From the IMG/VR virus record IMGVR_UViG_3300037584_004099, positions 1 to 27,117 of that record: 27,117 bases of DNA; one strand, given 5' to 3'. This stretch comes from a virus. A model generated the notes under the pieces. The model made no database searches. It was given only the letters and a program-made list of their open reading frames with translations, and had not been told where the DNA came from. Below, piece by piece: positions 15,197 through 24,743 of the stretch. Position numbers and translations under genes: made by a program. Position 1 is the first letter of the stretch, and every line of letters begins with the position of its first letter.

Positions 15197-16987
15197 TTAG
15201 CCATTAAGATCGTAACAAACAACTAGACCGTAGTAGTCAGGACGCACCATCTTCTTGGCATAGCGAGTCATCACGCCCTTGCGGGGCACGAAGTCTTCGG
15301 TACCAAAAATGGTAGGCGTGACTTGCAGCGGAACATAAGGAGCATACACATAGCCACTTTCAAGGAAGCTATTACCCTTACGTCCAACAAGAATCACGTT
15401 GCGAAGGAAGTACGGATCAACGTAGATGTCCATCTTGCGGCTCAACGAACCAACATTGACGGCACCCCACGAACCCTGATCATCCTCAGGCGTGACGCTT
15501 GCCTTGAATCCAGCGGTGAACTCAAGGAGGCTGGCCACTTCCGGCGAACAAACGATGAAGTTTGCACCACCACGAAGGGTCTTACGATGCATACGAGCGC
15601 TGAGATCATTAATGGTCTCAAGCAAGGTCTCGTACCACTCACTCACGGTACCCGTAAAGGTCGGAGCCAAGCTGTTCGAGATATCTGCACCAGTTTCACG
15701 ATCAAGGAACTTACCAGGGCGACGGCTCCAGTAAAGCTTACCAGCCGTTGCACCAGCAACAAGATCCGAAAGAATTTCCTGATCAATTTCAAGAGCAATC
15801 TGCTCGGAAAGAATGCTTGTCAACTCAACTTCAGCGTCGAGGTTATGATAAGCGTTCAAGTCCTGAGCAAGCTCGGGGCTCCACTTAGCCTTGAGCTTCT
15901 TGGTGACTGCTGTGACAGCGGTGCTGTCCACCTTGATGTCGATCTCTGGGATCTGCTGTTGGGTTTCAAGTCCCCAACCTTGGTTACCGTTTGCACCCTT
16001 AAGGGCACCAAAAGGATCACCAGCAGCAACGAATTCGTCCGCAATCGGGAAGGAAACCTTACCGACAGCGAGCGCACCACCCTGCGAGGCTCCACCAATG
16101 GCGTCACCTGCCAGCGAGTGCGAAAGCGCCACTGCTGACAGTGTTGCATTGCGGCTGACGCCGACAACAAGAACTCTGTCTCTTCTGGTTCCGGAGAACT
16201 GAGTGAGACGACGAGCCTGATATGCTTCGCCAAGCGCTGAGGTGCCTGCTTTGGTACCAAGATCACCAGCACCATTAACACCCGAGACCACAAAAGCGGC
16301 AAGGTTGTCTAAGTTAGCACCGTTAGCGTTGGTAACATCAAATTCAGCAATAACGTAAGTCGAGGTACCCGAAATAAGATCAGGGTCACGACGAAGAGTC
16401 TGCACATCATTAGCCGACTCGTTCGCACCGAACGTACCCGACGAAATAACGGTAAGACCTGTAATCGAACCTGTTGGGCTCGAATATCCGTTACCAAGGT
16501 TATAAAAACCTTTCTCACCAGCAGAGTCGGCAAGATTAGCACCACTCATAATCTGGTTGGCGACACGGCCTTGACCGTAAATCGACTCATTGCCAGTGGC
16601 ACCGAGACGGTGAGCGCTACCGCTACCATCAATTGCGCCCATAGCGCTATCAGGACTATACACGAAGTCCATGAAGAAGATGAGTCCACTTGGGAGGCTC
16701 ATCGGTTGCACGGAAACGAGGTCCTGTGCTAACAACCCACCGAATACACGGCGAACAATTGGGAATGCAACAGAAGCGAATCCTTCGACATCACCTGCTT
16801 GCATGGTAGTTTGCTCTTTGAGAAGTTGAGCAGCTTGGTTCTCCAAAAGACGAGCCATATTCGAGCGATCATTATCACCCAGCCCTTCCAGAAGACCAGT
16901 CTTGGCCCACTTATCAAGTAGAGCTTCACCTTCATGGGCGAGCGAACGTCGTTTGATTCCTTCAGTCAAAGTATCAATTACAGACAT
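15197..16987 (-). CDS. gp23: Major capsid protein, gp23-like
   Basis: A 596-aa protein starting at ATG 16987 behind AAGGAG (T4 gp23 is 521 aa). The N-terminal 60 residues form a charged prohead-core-facing propeptide. It is followed near 65-95 by GDVEGFASVAFPIVRRVFGG and VSVQPMSLP, the most conserved signature of T4-type capsid proteins. A candidate protease cut is LLKE at 55-58, which fits the L-x-E specificity of the gp21 family. The rest carries the HK97-type core with inserted beta domains and ends VRPDYYGLVVCYDLNG. Codons are strikingly different from neighbouring genes: Phe is mostly TTC and Arg mostly CGC/CGT, against TTT and AGA elsewhere, as expected for the most abundant virion protein. 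It follows the scaffold by 25 nt and is closed by a strong terminator. Confidence 0.95.
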   Translation of the reverse strand: MSVIDTLTEGIKRRSLAHEGEALLDKWAKTGLLEGLGDNDRSNMARLLENQAAQLLKEQTTMQAGDVEGFASVAFPIVRRVFGGLLAQDLVSVQPMSLPSGLIFFMDFVYSPDSAMGAIDGSGSAHRLGATGNESIYGQGRVANQIMSGANLADSAGEKGFYNLGNGYSSPTGSITGLTVISSGTFGANESANDVQTLRRDPDLISGTSTYVIAEFDVTNANGANLDNLAAFVVSGVNGAGDLGTKAGTSALGEAYQARRLTQFSGTRRDRVLVVGVSRNATLSAVALSHSLAGDAIGGASQGGALAVGKVSFPIADEFVAAGDPFGALKGANGNQGWGLETQQQIPEIDIKVDSTAVTAVTKKLKAKWSPELAQDLNAYHNLDAEVELTSILSEQIALEIDQEILSDLVAGATAGKLYWSRRPGKFLDRETGADISNSLAPTFTGTVSEWYETLLETINDLSARMHRKTLRGGANFIVCSPEVASLLEFTAGFKASVTPEDDQGSWGAVNVGSLSRKMDIYVDPYFLRNVILVGRKGNSFLESGYVYAPYVPLQVTPTIFGTEDFVPRKGVMTRYAKKMVRPDYYGLVVCYDLNG

Positions 16988-17012: not shown

Positions 17013-18029
17013 TTATTTGTTGTATATACCAGCTAGTGTAGACCAGCGCTTTAAAACCGGATTACTATCACCATCGGATGTTTCAGACTCACGTCTTCCG
17101 CTTAGAACAACTGATGATTTTCTTGACACAGCTTCAGACAACGATTGTGGGGCTTTCTTAGATGAACTGCCCGCCATTGTCTTTTGAAGAGCTTCAAAAA
17201 TCAACTCTGCTTCTTTAACCGATTGTGCCTCAGTGACTAACTCAACAATTTTACTTTTTTGCTGCTCATTCAGGGAGGAGTCCTGTAGTACACGATTGGT
17301 ATACAACAACCTAGCGTTAGAGAGGTTAACCTCTTCCAAACGATTCTTAACTTTTACTAATAAATTCTTTAGATCTTTGTTTTGTTTTGTAAGTTCTTCA
17401 TTTTTCATTTCAAGCCTGTCGGTCTTGTATTCCAAACTTTCAAGATCTTCTTTGGAAACGCCATCTTCAGCGGGCGAGGCCACATACATTCCTGCCTCTT
17501 CCTCAGACTCAGCGACTTCCTCTTCGTCGTACTCTGCCACCATAGCTTGATCTTCTTTGTCTATGTCAACAGTCAAAATTTCTTTAAATATGTCAACAAG
17601 ATCAGACTCGTCAACTTCAATTTCATCATCGTCCCTGTTGCCAGGTTCAACTCCATCTTCTATGCTTACGTCAAGTCCAACTTCATCAGCGATTTCTTGG
17701 CGGTCAAGCTCAAAATCTGTCTCTTCTGGGTCCTCTTCGGACTCGGCAGCGGCGATTATTTGGTCTAAATCAACAACAACCACATCATCACCTTCTACAT
17801 CAGGATCATATGCCATCGGAATATCTAGATCATCACCGCCAGCTTCATCAGTGTCCATCTCGTCATCCATCCCAAGGTCCATTTCTTCATCTTGTTCTAG
17901 AATGCTCTGCATGGCTTGCTCAACTTCCGTTGAATATTTTTCAATTACGGCGCTTTCAGCGCTTTTCAGAGCAGCTTCTCGTAATTGAGACGCATCAATA
18001 ATGGCTTGTTCAAGCATAGAGTTAGACAT
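17013..18029 (-). CDS. gp22: Prohead core scaffolding protein, gp22-like
   Basis: A 338-aa protein starting at ATG 18029 with AGGGG about 10 nt upstream. It is extremely acidic from about residue 45 to 190 (runs of Asp and Glu such as EQDEEMDLGMDDEMDTDEAG). A coiled coil follows at about 195-245 (YKTDRLEMKNEELTKQNKDL), then a basic, Ser-rich tail. T4 gp22 (269 aa) is the main component of the prohead core and is degraded by the gp21 protease. Acidic helical composition, coiled coil and position immediately before the capsid gene all fit. The acidic middle part is longer than I would expect for T4. Assignment is by composition and position rather than strict sequence identity. Confidence 0.82.
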   Translation of the reverse strand: MSNSMLEQAIIDASQLREAALKSAESAVIEKYSTEVEQAMQSILEQDEEMDLGMDDEMDTDEAGGDDLDIPMAYDPDVEGDDVVVVDLDQIIAAAESEEDPEETDFELDRQEIADEVGLDVSIEDGVEPGNRDDDEIEVDESDLVDIFKEILTVDIDKEDQAMVAEYDEEEVAESEEEAGMYVASPAEDGVSKEDLESLEYKTDRLEMKNEELTKQNKDLKNLLVKVKNRLEEVNLSNARLLYTNRVLQDSSLNEQQKSKIVELVTEAQSVKEAELIFEALQKTMAGSSSKKAPQSLSEAVSRKSSVVLSGRRESETSDGDSNPVLKRWSTLAGIYNK

Positions 18030-18109: not shown

Positions 18110-18538
18110 TCAGTCTGAAACACCTGATCCAGTCGGTGTCAACATCTCACCGGAAGCAATATTTGTAATTTCAGCATAGATTTGATAATTCACAGTCTGT
18201 GCAGCAGTGGCATTTGAAATGTAAATATCTTTCATTCTGCCGTTCAAAGTAATTTGATTACTTCCTGTTAAGCCGCCGGGAGTTAGGGCACCAGAAACTG
18301 TTATAAAATGCCGGGTCGTCTCTGGAGTATTCATTGAACCTGTGGGAGCAAAAGAAATTCTTAGTGCGTGGGCACCGTGGTTTATGACAGTGACAGATTT
18401 TGCGATAGGATCAAAAGAATGAGGGTCTTGCTCACCAGCGCCCAGGGCGTCAGTTCCAGAAAGATATGGCAGCCCGGCCATCTGATACGATCCAACGTTA
18501 TTAACTCCTGGGGTTCCCCAATTAGCATTTCTACCCAT
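18110..18538 (-). CDS. Small beta-rich virion protein, head decoration candidate
   Basis: A 142-aa protein starting at ATG 18538. Its start overlaps the stop of the bS21-like gene (TAATG), and its ribosome binding site AGGAGGAG lies inside the Arg-rich tail codons of that gene. The N-terminus NNVGSYQMAGLPYLSGTDAL resembles a motif I recall from small proteins encoded near capsid genes in T4-related aquatic phages. The rest is predicted beta strands (SVTVINHGAHALRISFAP, KDIYISNATAAQTVNYQIYA) without charge clusters or membrane segments. Size, strand-rich composition, strong ribosome binding site and position before scaffold and capsid suggest an abundant capsid-surface protein. No enzymatic motif. 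The decoration role is inference; another small structural role is possible. Confidence 0.65.
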   Translation of the reverse strand: MGRNANWGTPGVNNVGSYQMAGLPYLSGTDALGAGEQDPHSFDPIAKSVTVINHGAHALRISFAPTGSMNTPETTRHFITVSGALTPGGLTGSNQITLNGRMKDIYISNATAAQTVNYQIYAEITNIASGEMLTPTGSGVSD

Positions 18539-18834
18539 TATCTTCTCCTCCTAGAACGTTTGGCAGTTCTCTTACTACTAGGATTAAATAGTTCGTCTCT
18601 ATCTCTATTGACCTTATCAATTACTCTTTGCCTGTTTGCTTTCTTTTCTGATTTAAGCACAGATGGTTTCTTAAATCGTGTTCTAGATCTAAATTCTTCC
18701 ACGATACCTTCTTTCTTTGCTTTCTTGATAAACTTTCTGACCATTCTCTCGTTATTATCACCACACTCTTGTGCGGTTACAGTGATACAGCCACTTATAT
18801 TTTTCTGGAATTTCTTGTTTCTTTGTTTTCTCAT
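18538..18834 (-). CDS. Ribosomal protein bS21-like protein with Arg-rich tail
   Basis: A 98-aa, strongly basic protein. I take the ATG at 18834, 5 nt after the preceding stop, with AAGAAAG upstream; a TTG at 18861 would add 9 residues. The central ~50 residues align by eye with bacterial bS21: ERMVRKFIKKAKKEGIVEEF matches the E. coli segment beginning ALRRFKRSCEKAG, and RTRFKKPSVLKSEKKANRQR matches [20 protein letters not shown]. The protein then continues ~30 residues into a tail ending KRSRRRR. bS21 binds the small ribosomal subunit near the mRNA exit and anti-Shine-Dalgarno region. Phage copies are known and are thought to redirect host ribosomes. Location among head genes also allows a virion or RNA/DNA-binding role. 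The TAA overlaps the next start, so translation is coupled. Confidence 0.78.
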   Translation of the reverse strand: MRKQRNKKFQKNISGCITVTAQECGDNNERMVRKFIKKAKKEGIVEEFRSRTRFKKPSVLKSEKKANRQRVIDKVNRDRDELFNPSSKRTAKRSRRRR

Positions 18835-18838
18835 TTTA

Positions 18839-19234
18839 TTACTTTCTTGTTTTGGAGGCAACTGCTGCCCAATTACCCATTCCTGGGAGGTTAGTTATAT
18901 CAACACCCGAGTCCCCAGGTGGTAGCCCACTAAGTGGACCTCTACCGGACTCTGGTATTGGTTGAGTTCCCTCAAATAACTGAGGGTTTGAAAATTTGCT
19001 CTTAACGTCGTCATATGCATTGGATCCGATAGCGTCAAGAACTCTTTTTTTAGATTCTATCATTTGTGTTGATTGTCGTGATGGCGTTTTACGCTCTTGT
19101 TCGAACATTGGCTTTGTTGGCGCAGAGGTCAACCCTTGGGCTACCTCTGTGATAATACCAGAAAGAACACCCTCTTCAAAGATTACCTCTTTGACACATT
19201 CTTTAATAATATTTTTGAGTTCCGATTTTTTCAT
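18839..19234 (-). CDS. Small uncharacterised head-module protein with amphipathic N-terminus
   Basis: A 131-aa protein starting at ATG 19234 after GGAAAGAG. The first 30 residues (KKSELKNIIKECVKEVIFEE) form a charged amphipathic helix of the kind found at the N-terminus of several small marine-phage virion proteins. The remainder is Pro/Gly/Ser-rich and probably unstructured (GRGPLSGLPPGDSG). It sits between the fibre-like protein and the bS21-like protein, 12 nt after the former's stop. It has no cysteine pairs, membrane segments or catalytic motifs. A prohead-core or internal head component is a reasonable guess because the helix resembles assembly tags and the operon is a head operon; I do not know its function. 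Confidence 0.65.
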   Translation of the reverse strand: MKKSELKNIIKECVKEVIFEEGVLSGIITEVAQGLTSAPTKPMFEQERKTPSRQSTQMIESKKRVLDAIGSNAYDDVKSKFSNPQLFEGTQPIPESGRGPLSGLPPGDSGVDITNLPGMGNWAAVASKTRK

Positions 19235-20477: not shown

Positions 20478-21074
20478 TTAGTCTCCTATAACATCATTTA
20501 AAGCACGATTAATTCTATCTGCTTTAGTTAGGTTAGTTTTAATTTCTTTACCCTCCGCAACCAAGAAAGCGCCGCTAGTGCTTGGCTCGGATACCAAATC
20601 AAAACACAGCAACTGAAAATCATCTTCGACCATGGTCGTGCCACCTTCCTGTCGTGTCGAACCCAGCCCACGACTGGATATACCCAATTGAACTCCACCT
20701 TTTACAAGTTGCTTGGCGACCTGGCCAGCGGGCGTATCAAGAATTTTTAACTTGCCCATCACGTCGTCACCATCCCACCAAACCTCAGTTACCAAATGAC
20801 TAGCATTTTTAAGTTCTACAACAGAACTATCTGGGTGGTCAAGTTCACCAATGGCTCGCCCTTCTTTTACAAGTTTTGTATAGTTTTTCATTTCTCGCTC
20901 AAGAATTGGTCGTGGGTAAATGCGACCGTTACCATTCTTTGCATCAGCAGCTTGTATTTTGCCTGCCAAAACGAGGTGAATACCATTTTTATTACCTTCA
21001 CGCTCGTCTTCTGTGAGAAGATCGTCACTGTAATCTAGATTCATAAACTCTTGAAGCACATATTTCTTAGTCAT
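20478..21074 (-). CDS. gp21: Prohead core maturation protease, gp21-like
   Basis: A 198-aa serine protease starting at ATG 21074 with a strong AAGGAG. The domain starts GIHLVLAGKIQAADAKNGNG with RIYPRPILEREM near 51-62, the substrate-groove pattern of the T4 gp21 / U9 prohead protease family. Catalytic residues visible are His80 in GELDH and a Ser in GISSRG at 133 or 134; a third residue is likely the Asp of LLCFDLVSEPS near 155-165. Length is close to T4 gp21 (212 aa). It cuts scaffold, capsid and core proteins at L-x-E or I-x-E sites when the prohead matures. It is preceded by a 7-bp hairpin and followed, after a 1-nt gap, by the fibre-like gene. Confidence 0.93.
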   Translation of the reverse strand: MTKKYVLQEFMNLDYSDDLLTEDEREGNKNGIHLVLAGKIQAADAKNGNGRIYPRPILEREMKNYTKLVKEGRAIGELDHPDSSVVELKNASHLVTEVWWDGDDVMGKLKILDTPAGQVAKQLVKGGVQLGISSRGLGSTRQEGGTTMVEDDFQLLCFDLVSEPSTSGAFLVAEGKEIKTNLTKADRINRALNDVIGD

Positions 21075-22023: not shown

Positions 22024-22840
22024 CGGATTCGTATTCTCTTACTAAAGTCTGAAGTTTTAGAACCTTTTTAAGGTCTGCCTCTGTTATACTTGAAACATCA
22101 AACGATCCAATCTTCTCTAATACGACTTTAGTGCTATTGAGCATTTCCTCGTCAGACTTAACTTCTTCAAGTGTCAAAGACTGTTCGACTTTATCTCTTA
22201 TTCTGCTTAATTCTTCTACAAGGTGAATTTGAAAGTCAGCATAATTATCCCCTAACGAAACAATATACTTATTTAACAAGTCACGTTGCTCGGGTAACAA
22301 TTCTTTATATTTATCATTGTAATTTTTGACAAAGCTGCTAACAACTAAATTATCAACTGGCTTCATAGCGCCCTCTTGTATGGTTTCCCCTGAAGACAAT
22401 GAATCTAAAACTTCGTTTTCCAAAATAACACGCTTATTAACCGGGGTGCTGGAATTAAATATCTGGCTAACTGTTGCAAAGCTTTTATAGTTTGGTACAA
22501 AGTTTGAAAAAACAGAAGACCCAAGCTCTTGATTTATTGTTTTAATAAGTTTACTTTGTTCATTAAAGATCTGGTTGGGGGAAAGCTTTTCGTGTTCTGC
22601 CCGAACATGAAATATCATCTTTTCTGCGGTGTACTTGTCCAATTCTTTGGTTTCGATAAGTGCTTTATAACATTTCAGTTCTTTGCTCAAGACAGAGCCA
22701 TTTGAAAAATGCTCCTTTATTATACTAACAATTTTATTCTTTCTATTAGCGTTCTTAGTTACAATGGCTTTTGTGACCTCTCTAATAAGAGCCTCGAAAA
22801 CAAAAGCAGTGTTTCTTTTCTTATTGTGTTTAGTTCTCAT
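22007..22840 (-). CDS. Uncharacterised portal-adjacent head protein
   Basis: A 277-aa protein starting at ATG 22840, overlapping the portal stop by 11 nt. The N-terminal KHNKKRNTAFVFEALIREVT motif (about 4-23) is familiar from conserved unnamed proteins beside the portal in T4-related aquatic phages. The remainder is helical and charged, with Leu-rich segments near 60-110 and 180-275 and no membrane stretch or Cys pairs. Coupling to the portal gene by overlap suggests stoichiometric expression. Candidate roles are prohead core or internal head protein; I know of no experimental function. Codon use is AT-rich (AGA for Arg, TTT for Phe), like other moderately expressed genes here. Confidence 0.72.
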   Translation of the reverse strand: MRTKHNKKRNTAFVFEALIREVTKAIVTKNANRKNKIVSIIKEHFSNGSVLSKELKCYKALIETKELDKYTAEKMIFHVRAEHEKLSPNQIFNEQSKLIKTINQELGSSVFSNFVPNYKSFATVSQIFNSSTPVNKRVILENEVLDSLSSGETIQEGAMKPVDNLVVSSFVKNYNDKYKELLPEQRDLLNKYIVSLGDNYADFQIHLVEELSRIRDKVEQSLTLEEVKSDEEMLNSTKVVLEKIGSFDVSSITEADLKKVLKLQTLVREYESDDAEN

Positions 22841-24743
22841 TGTTTTTTTCCAAATCCCTGATCAATCGAAGTACATCGTTGTTTGATTCCCTTAATAGAG
22901 TCTCTTCACGATCTAGTGCTTCACCAACCGTTCCCCTTGATAAAGGTCTCATTTCGCCTGCCCACCCTTTATATAGGTTTCTATCAGAGCTAGATGCCAC
23001 GCTATCTCCTGCACTAGCTAAATAACTTCTCAATCTTGCGCCGGCACGGCGGCCGTCAAGCGTTACCTTTTCATAGCCGTTATCGTTTCTTTGACCTGGT
23101 TCTGGTTCTGCCAGTAAAGGACCTTCGTCGGCTGGCTCATCGGCGGCTGGTATTTCGTCAGTCGCTGCGTCGAGGCTTTGGTCTGCCCCAAGATCGTCAC
23201 CACCGAGGTCACCGCCTGCTTCACCTGCTCCTGCACCGGCTGTAACGGCAGCAGTCATCGCCTCACCAGCGGCGGTGCCAATTGACTCCATAGAGGCCGT
23301 GTGCTTAGAGTCGCCATACTGTTCAAACATAATTCGTTCGACTTCATCATCATCAAGCTTGAATATATTTTTGTAAATCCATCGTTTGGAGAAATACCCA
23401 TCAGTCGCTGCACCAGCTATTTCAAACTTAGTTCTAAAATGTTCAAGCTCTTGCAATTCAGCGATCTTAGATGGATTATTCAAAGTCAACTTAAAGTTAG
23501 TTAGATCGTTATTCCTATAGCCCAAAGTAAACAAGTGAATAATACACAACTTTTCTAGCTCAGCTAAGACCACCCGCTGTAATCTTTGGATAGTCCTTGC
23601 AAAACGAATATCTTTTTGCGCTAAGGTGGTTTTGTCCTCCATCGCATCAGACTGAGCCAAATATGCTTTTGGTACCTTAAGTGCTGAAAACAACTTGTCT
23701 CTCAAATAATTAACATCGTCGATGTCACCAGTGAAAGAGCCACCAGCCAGTGTTTCAATACGAGAAGATTGTCCTGCTCGCACCGGAATGTAGTAATCTT
23801 CATCGATGCTCATAGCATTGTATCTAAGGTCAACTCTGCCTGTGTCGGCATCAACAATTTGATTTCTCTTCATCTGAGTCTTTACTTGCTCGATATACAT
23901 TTCAACATCCTCAGCAGGGATGTTCCCGACATCAATGTAAAAAACTCGACGCTCAGGAGAACGAACAATTCTGTAGGCCATCATTGCGTCTTCTAAGAGT
24001 GTTAACTGTCTCCAAATTCTTCTAGAGGGTTCCAACACAGAAGTTCCATAGGGGACGTATTTATCGTTCCCCAAAACTCTAAAATGGGCTATTTGCCAAT
24101 TTTCGAACGTGACACCAGGCTGGGAATCTCCCGACCAATAATATTGAACATAGTTTGGATTTGTTGGATCTTTTCCTTCTAGTCTCTCGACTTCACGGAC
24201 AGGAAGCGGTATGACATTAGTAACTCCCAAATCATCATCAACGTCCAGATATAAATAATAGTCCCCAAACTTACACATACTACGAGCCCAACCAAAAAGG
24301 TTTGACTCAACATTTAGAACAGTATATAAAAGAGTATTAATTATTTCCTTTATTTCTCTGTTGTGGCACTCAATGTGAACCAAGGGGTTTATTTCAGAGG
24401 ATGTTGTTATCTCATCAGCGTAAACATCCAAAGCAGAAGCGATCTCAGGCATATATTCCATTTGATCAAAGTCAGTATAGCGCAACTGCTTATCCCTATT
24501 CAGCAGGACCTTGCTCTGTAGTCCAGAAAAGGGGTTGTAGTATTCTTTTTTCTTAAATTCTTTACCATTTGCAGTTGTAAACTTATATTTTGTAACAGTC
24601 CTGGCCGTTGTTCTTGTAACAGTAGGCTGATTGTAATCAACTAATGGACCACTAAACAACCTTGTAAGTCTTTTAAACAAAGTGGACTGTTGATTCCGAG
24701 GATTGTTTTGATCACTCTTGTGTTGGTTACTATTATCTGACAT
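22830..24743 (-). CDS. gp20: Portal vertex protein, gp20-like
   Basis: A 637-aa protein starting at ATG 24743, two bases after the terL stop, with AGGGG upstream. T4 gp20 is 524 aa. The conserved portal core includes MPEIASALDVYADEI near 98-112, IRVSPERR-type YRIVRSPERRVFYIDVGNIP near 254-273, and LRDKLFSALKVPKAYLAQ near 345-362. The C-terminal extension from about residue 490 to 550 is low complexity, rich in Ala, Gly, Asp and Glu, and is followed by a Lys/Arg-rich tail. The dodecamer at one vertex starts prohead assembly, docks the terminase and becomes the neck attachment. The flexible acidic tail is absent from T4 and probably lies inside or beside the crown. Identification is secure. Confidence 0.93.
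   Translation of the reverse strand: MSDNSNQHKSDQNNPRNQQSTLFKRLTRLFSGPLVDYNQPTVTRTTARTVTKYKFTTANGKEFKKKEYYNPFSGLQSKVLLNRDKQLRYTDFDQMEYMPEIASALDVYADEITTSSEINPLVHIECHNREIKEIINTLLYTVLNVESNLFGWARSMCKFGDYYLYLDVDDDLGVTNVIPLPVREVERLEGKDPTNPNYVQYYWSGDSQPGVTFENWQIAHFRVLGNDKYVPYGTSVLEPSRRIWRQLTLLEDAMMAYRIVRSPERRVFYIDVGNIPAEDVEMYIEQVKTQMKRNQIVDADTGRVDLRYNAMSIDEDYYIPVRAGQSSRIETLAGGSFTGDIDDVNYLRDKLFSALKVPKAYLAQSDAMEDKTTLAQKDIRFARTIQRLQRVVLAELEKLCIIHLFTLGYRNNDLTNFKLTLNNPSKIAELQELEHFRTKFEIAGAATDGYFSKRWIYKNIFKLDDDEVERIMFEQYGDSKHTASMESIGTAAGEAMTAAVTAGAGAGEAGGDLGGDDLGADQSLDAATDEIPAADEPADEGPLLAEPEPGQRNDNGYEKVTLDGRRAGARLRSYLASAGDSVASSSDRNLYKGWAGEMRPLSRGTVGEALDREETLLRESNNDVLRLIRDLEKNNEN

Follow-up and report, generated by a model that had tools for sequence, protein, structure and literature searches.

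The window analysed here is a virus record of 27,117 bases. On its minus strand, a gene for a 98-residue homologue of the ribosomal protein bS21 is located among genes for head proteins (Table 1). The protein was matched by PF01165 (E = 5.7e-7, 29.6 bits, curated cut-off 27), by the NCBIfam model TIGR00030 S21p (32.6 bits, curated cut-off 28.95) and by PHROG 21469 'ribosomal protein S21' (E = 3.9e-5); the PHROG S21 family matched 58 of the 62 members of the alignment. An earlier note on this DNA, made from the letters alone, had proposed a bS21 homologue with a bS21-like central part and had named a search with PF01165 as one check. That search was carried out and gave a significant match, the Pfam and NCBIfam scores exceed the curated cut-offs, and the Pfam match corresponds to the central residues 26-71. 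The coordinates of the gene had been given exactly, and the strand, which had been left out, is the minus strand. The gene is a real and well-conserved member of a known gene kind, phage bS21. A basic N-terminal extension is present in the clade resembling the window and absent in most other relatives, with two exceptions (L034 and L079). The relatives were divided into clades by sequence pattern, and L034 was placed in the second group despite its N-terminal extension.

The placement of bS21 among head genes was confirmed, since a T4-type Gp20 portal, Gp21 protease and Gp23 capsid protein are encoded on the same strand. Between protease and capsid gene lie genes for a 409-aa protein, a 131-aa protein, bS21, a 142-aa protein and a 338-aa protein. 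The 409-aa protein has weak PHROG matches, one of them to a tail fibre family (E = 3e-5). The 131-aa protein is lineage-specific, with a conserved C-terminal motif of the GVDIS type, and had no family match in Pfam, PHROG or NCBIfam; two PHROGs each matched one of the 45 members of its family (E about 0.009). For the 142-aa protein, no match over the cut-off was found in Pfam, PHROG or NCBIfam. Its predicted structure is beta-rich (pLDDT 77), which agrees with the 'probable decoration protein' of the earlier note, but no Foldseek match at E ≤ 0.001 was obtained, leaving this assignment plausible only. The 338-aa protein, which had no match over the cut-off in Pfam or PHROG, occupies the scaffold position. 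The order of portal, protease, scaffold position and capsid protein is that of gp20, gp21, gp22 and gp23 in the T4 head cluster. To our knowledge, the T4 head cluster contains no bS21. Unlike T4, the lineage of the window encodes a candidate internal protein, bS21 and a beta-rich protein in the stretch that separates the protease from the scaffold position.

A gene for a 377-aa protein lies upstream of the head cluster in a close long relative (L015:974-2107, phage record G002); by its glycine-rich motifs we presume this protein to resemble a tubulin/FtsZ-type GTPase.

Table 1. Genes and sequence elements of the bS21 region (positions in the window)
Feature	Position	Strand	Basis or remark
Portal, Gp20 family	22830..24743	-	PF07230, E 2.7e-79
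Prohead protease, Gp21/S77 family	20478..21074	-	PF03420, E 7.3e-29
Upstream neighbour, 131 aa, candidate internal/core head protein	18839..19234	-	conserved N-terminal segment ending ITE/V (slash, cleavage-type site)
Phage bS21 gene	18538..18834	-	98 aa plus stop; PF01165, TIGR00030, PHROG 21469
Basic N-terminal extension of bS21, about 17 residues	18784..18834	-	alignments
bS21 core domain, residues 26-71	18622..18759	-	Pfam match
Long basic C-terminal tail of bS21, residues 72-98	18541..18621	-	outside Pfam match
AGGAGG, Shine-Dalgarno of downstream gene, from in-frame bS21 Arg codons	18547..18552	-	duplex -10.2 kcal/mol
TAATG, bS21 stop overlapping downstream start	18536..18540	-	sequence
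Downstream neighbour, 142 aa, beta-rich, candidate decoration protein	18110..18538	-	position, model
338-aa protein, scaffold position before capsid gene	17013..18029	-	position; Asp/Glu-rich to eye
Major capsid protein, Gp23 family	15197..16987	-	PF07068, E 1.4e-72

The position of bS21 is nearly invariant among relatives

A profile of 11 bS21 sequences yielded 79 viral loci, from the best 80 of 142 relatives, and one locus in a Flavobacteriaceae MAG; together with L012 these make up the 81 loci compared. On this basis (best 80 of 142 relatives), bS21 is immediately preceded, on its own strand, by a homologue of the 131-aa gene in all 81 loci; in 72 of them the next labelled gene is a homologue of the 142-aa gene. 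Because these loci had been chosen for having a bS21, the test was redone with the 131-aa gene and the protease as seeds, using the best 80 of at least 350 and the best 80 of 487 relatives, respectively. The three seed sets share contigs and are not independent. Among the matches listed for the 131-aa gene, two of 80 loci end too early to be judged. In 75 of the remaining 78, bS21 follows directly (69 by script and 6 by reading the rows, where open frames overlap beyond the limit of the script). At two further loci (L127 and L164) bS21 is found between the 142-aa homologue and the scaffold position. L134, where 1,004 bases remain, shows no labelled bS21, though the gene could be situated further on. 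The protease seed gave 77 listed loci; the 131-aa gene was not in view in 34 and two end too early, while all 41 others have bS21 directly after the 131-aa gene (39 by script, 2 by reading). Over both seeds, 119 loci of these best-scoring relatives could be judged, and 118 of them have bS21 within the head cluster.

In each of 11 chosen long contigs (127-203 kb) a single bS21 match (E ≤ 0.01) was detected. Near-invariant placement and single copy indicate that bS21 behaves as a core gene of the lineage, and by this measure it is evidently no stray acquisition. A large group of uncultured T4-like phages thus appears to have bS21 fixed in the capsid-gene cluster. Neither for bS21 nor for its 131-aa upstream neighbour were close relatives found in named phages, and PF01165 gave no match at E ≤ 1 in Flavobacterium phage immuto or Rhodothermus phage RM378.

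The end of bS21 provides the start signal of the next gene

In the window, the TAA stop of bS21 and the ATG of the downstream gene share one base. The AGGAGG sits 8 nt before this ATG, within the last bS21 codons AGG AGG AGA AGA, and is the strongest Shine-Dalgarno site between the terminase and the capsid gene. Among the 72 loci in which the downstream start was seen (best 80 of 142 relatives), the one-base overlap occurs in 29; the other junctions have gaps of 11-60 nt (33 loci), 0-10 nt (9 loci) or more (1 locus). Duplex values range from -7.3 to -10.3 across 18 distinct overlapping bS21 tails. The Arg-rich C-terminal extension described in the earlier note does exist, but its last codons double as the Shine-Dalgarno sequence of the next gene, so that the Arg-rich end is at least partly a by-product of this signal. 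Only partly, it seems, since basic residues also end many members that have a gap before the next gene. The combination of TAATG and AGGAGG is compatible with translational coupling, or may simply be a strong ribosome-binding site of the downstream gene.

The start signal of bS21 itself is weak in the window (-0.7 kcal/mol). In loci resembling the window it averages -3.9 (36 loci), compared to -9.0 for the next gene (33 loci). In the window the bS21 gene begins 4 nt after the 131-aa gene, and the weak start together with this short spacing suggests that bS21 is translated by ribosomes leaving the 131-aa gene.

Comparison with described phage bS21 genes

Phage bS21 genes among head genes, with late expression, were described by Chen 2022, who suggest replacement of bS21 in the ribosome, preferential translation and packaging in the particle (PMC9723584). 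The literature thus already contains the late, head-linked phage bS21 as well as the ideas of ribosome steering and of virion cargo. In that study, 388 of 900 published bS21 phages are reported with a core structural gene no more than ten genes away (PMC9723584), a set to which members of the present lineage may belong. The freshwater Bacteroidetes phages of Chen 2022 resemble the window in having bS21 among terminase, portal, prohead protease and capsid genes (PMC9723584). In those phages the strand opposite to the structural genes encodes bS21, and the genes of the region do not form a single transcribed operon, whereas here bS21 shares the strand of its upstream neighbour (81 of 81 best-scoring loci). 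The residue equivalent to Tyr54 of Flavobacterium johnsoniae bS21 is aromatic in 61 of 61 sequences there and in 0 of 63 distinct sequences in the lineage of the window. The stop/start overlap (29 of 72 loci) is a further trait of this lineage unlike those phages. Judging by these features (same strand, overlap, Shine-Dalgarno site in the coding tail, non-aromatic contact residue), the arrangement differs from the one described. In titles, abstract openings and passages of the open-licence literature on phage S21, the arrangement of the window was not found described; passages of PMC11242549 describe a phage S21 gene, with no mention of S21 in the virion, and those of PMC13157829 concern a cyanophage that has several ribosomal proteins. 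What appears to be new in detail is that the position is fixed on the same strand and that the last codons form the start signal of the next gene.

Other phages share single features with the window. The Pelagibacter phage HTVC008M is likewise a myovirus with a bS21, and passages of Mizuno 2019 report that this bS21 enters E. coli ribosomes and that such ribosomes are about 5% active in vitro (PMC6375957). The HTVC008M gene (91228-91431) has CobS, Hsp20 and sliding-clamp genes as its neighbours, in contrast to the head cluster of the window. The rpS21 proteins of huge phages have basic N-terminal extensions too, and ribosome takeover is proposed for them in passages of Al-Shayeb 2020 (PMC7162821). 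In an uncultured phage record of 484 kb (LR756508, L090), bS21 directly precedes the gene in scaffold position, which suggests that the placement may reach beyond the lineage of the window; unlike in this lineage, bS21 and the next gene both lack a Shine-Dalgarno site there.

Selection, conserved residues and predicted structure

The dN/dS of bS21 had a median of 0.13 over 30 pairs, at a median dS of 1.59, which is near saturation; pairs with a dS of 3 or more were excluded. Values of 0.10-0.14 were obtained for the direct neighbours and the scaffold-position and capsid genes, and 0.03 for the protease (5 pairs). By these ratios, bS21 is evidently under purifying selection. For comparison with cellular proteins, 30 Bacteroidota loci (29 plus L092) were collected, the 29 being the best-scoring ones of this one phylum; the motif used allowed 26 to be parsed and excluded 4. 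Column variability in 63 distinct phage and these 26 Bacteroidota bS21 sequences is correlated (Spearman 0.46, p = 1e-4, 64 columns). F35, K38, R51 and S58 are conserved in both sets, whereas several positions invariant in the cellular set (E26, G43 and R62) vary in the phage proteins. The predicted structure has helices at residues 28-42, 44-50, 57-83 and 87-97, with moderate confidence (pLDDT 77, pTM 0.41). Foldseek returned just three matches, all mitochondrial ribosome chains and non-significant (E 1.8 to 5.5); one of them, 6nu2_AQ, is named S21.

These data bear on the possibility that bS21 no longer acts in the ribosome and serves the prohead instead, in head assembly or nucleic-acid binding. 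Such a role would fit the near-invariant linkage to the upstream head-cluster gene, the basic extensions at both ends of the protein and the position among prohead and capsid genes. We nevertheless regard it as unlikely: several conserved residues of cellular bS21 are kept, the family cut-offs are still reached, and the location of the HTVC008M gene away from head genes indicates that a phage bS21 as such needs no head cluster. The reading we favour is that the protein still works in the ribosome.

Carriage in the virion

A second alternative, already put forward (PMC9723584), would have the virion carry bS21 and inject it, so that it acts on ribosomes as infection begins. Passages of PMC9026906 report that T4 head substrates are cleaved after L/I-x-E, that internal proteins have N-terminal targeting propeptides and that T4 internal proteins are ejected into the host. 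The 131-aa neighbour of bS21 has an N-terminal site of this type: [LIV]-x-E-[VI] was found in 44 of 45 sequences, 15 of these 44 having strict L/I-x-E at this site and the rest Val by manual count. Within residues 15-40, the strict motif is present in 43 of the 45 members and the loose motif in all 45, compared to 17.7 expected in shuffled sequences. The 131-aa protein is accordingly a reasonable candidate for a head protein of the internal or core type. The bS21 of the window has no L/I-x-E before residue 44; its sole such motif is IVE at residues 44-46, inside the core. An L/I-x-E within residues 15-40 does occur in 33 of 62 bS21 sequences; most of these are presumably core motifs in members of the shorter clade. 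I-x-E at the place of the IVE is common among relatives. The adjoining gene with its prohead-protease-type site and the ejection of T4 internal proteins thus speak for carriage, but the lack of an N-terminal propeptide motif makes packaging of bS21 less likely, and cleavage at the IVE of the core could split the protein inside the prohead. On balance we hold carriage in the virion to be quite unlikely, and continue to favour action of newly made bS21 in the ribosome.

Shine-Dalgarno use and the host

In the window, Shine-Dalgarno pairing is stronger at gene starts than at internal ATGs (mean -5.7 versus -2.9, p = 3.5e-5), and the same holds for head-gene starts in two groups of relatives (-6.4 versus -3.1 and -5.8 versus -2.7). 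In two long relatives the Shine-Dalgarno signal is genome-wide. The earlier note had suggested that bS21 could steer ribosomes to late phage mRNAs. A distinct start signal by which this could occur was not found in these two relatives: Shine-Dalgarno strength did not differ between structural and other genes of at least 150 aa (-5.96 versus -5.41, p = 0.27; -5.03 versus -5.17, p = 0.52), using crude gene calls (ATG only, at least 60 aa) and counting as structural those homologous to genes of the window. With the signal spread over the genome, it is probably also present on genes translated before phage bS21 exists, and this speaks for Shine-Dalgarno sites being read by the host's own ribosomes.

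According to passages of PMC9976891, bS21 of Flavobacterium johnsoniae contributes through its Tyr54 to hiding the anti-Shine-Dalgarno sequence, and ribosomes with Y54A give more output from mRNA with a strong Shine-Dalgarno sequence. The equivalent position is Arg in 59 of 63 distinct phage bS21 sequences and aromatic in none; among the 26 parsed Bacteroidota sequences, which are best-scoring loci and not a census, it is Arg in 20 and Tyr in 6. The closest isolates by TerL are Flavobacterium phages, tied with a Microcystis phage (44.5% each). Flavobacterium phage immuto is among the closest by TerL and capsid protein, and Microcystis phage Mel-JY01 is close by both proteins as well. No Shine-Dalgarno signal was detected in immuto (mean -0.39, 0 of 26 starts at -6 or below); Rhodothermus phage RM378 gave a mixed picture, with a mean of -4.1 and 5 of 17 starts reaching -6 or lower. 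One relative is located in a Flavobacteriaceae MAG whose own bS21 is of the Tyr type with a strong Shine-Dalgarno site, while the few genes beside it are without such sites. The 131-aa gene was absent from the 394 other sampled Bacteroidota genomes (1 of 395, the seed itself), so that the link to the MAG may be misbinning.

It is very unlikely, in our judgement, that the non-aromatic phage bS21 acts as a specificity switch turning Shine-Dalgarno-blind Bacteroidia ribosomes toward the Shine-Dalgarno-rich mRNAs of the phage: the non-aromatic residue, the Flavobacterium phages level with a Microcystis phage, the Tyr-type MAG and the effect of Y54A would agree with it, but genes needed before bS21 probably depend on Shine-Dalgarno sites themselves, immuto manages without them in such a host, Arg also occurs in most of the parsed Bacteroidota bS21, and the MAG may be misbinned.

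Further genes related to translation were seen in long relatives. A tmRNA gene is present in a relative of 203 kb (L293:9569-9990, phage record G410; ARAGORN tag ANNNNNFESVRLAA, Rfam RF00023 at 112.5 bits); it adds to the translation-related genes of the lineage and may hint at the host. Genes for four tRNAs (Arg, Met, Thr and Gly) are found in a relative of 190 kb (L287:5423-6347, phage record G408).

A proposed role for bS21 in late infection

We consider it fairly probable that a genuine bS21 is made together with the head proteins and that, late in infection, it exchanges with the bS21 of host 30S subunits and so keeps up or alters how initiation proceeds on phage mRNAs. Late production and entry into host ribosomes are probably part of the phage cycle. 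The proposal draws on homology, purifying selection, fixed co-directional position, single copy and the dual use of the tail codons. Transcription of bS21 would occur late, together with the head genes, and the operon would set its timing and dose. Ribosomes leaving the 131-aa gene would do most of its translation, and the end of the bS21 gene would load ribosomes onto the next gene. The protein would then be incorporated into host ribosomes, as passages of PMC6375957 report for HTVC008M bS21 in E. coli, to the benefit of the phage; it may maintain initiation when host bS21 runs short. The genome-wide Shine-Dalgarno signal in two relatives makes a general effect more likely than one specific to late mRNAs. 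As ribosomes with HTVC008M bS21 are nearly inactive in the assays given in those passages, the phage protein could inhibit host translation as readily as take it over.

Several observations stand against an exchange into ribosomes. A protein with a part in head assembly should likewise be tightly linked to a single head gene, the structural model is moderate with non-significant Foldseek matches, and some cellular invariants vary; the N- and C-terminal extensions may be accounted for only partly by such an exchange.

In the lineage of the window, bS21 behaves as a core head-cluster gene rather than as an occasional auxiliary one. This status makes the role of a phage bS21 testable by proteomics of ribosomes and virions, and the window-type and aromatic-type phage bS21 proteins would form a clean pair for testing a change in Shine-Dalgarno recognition.
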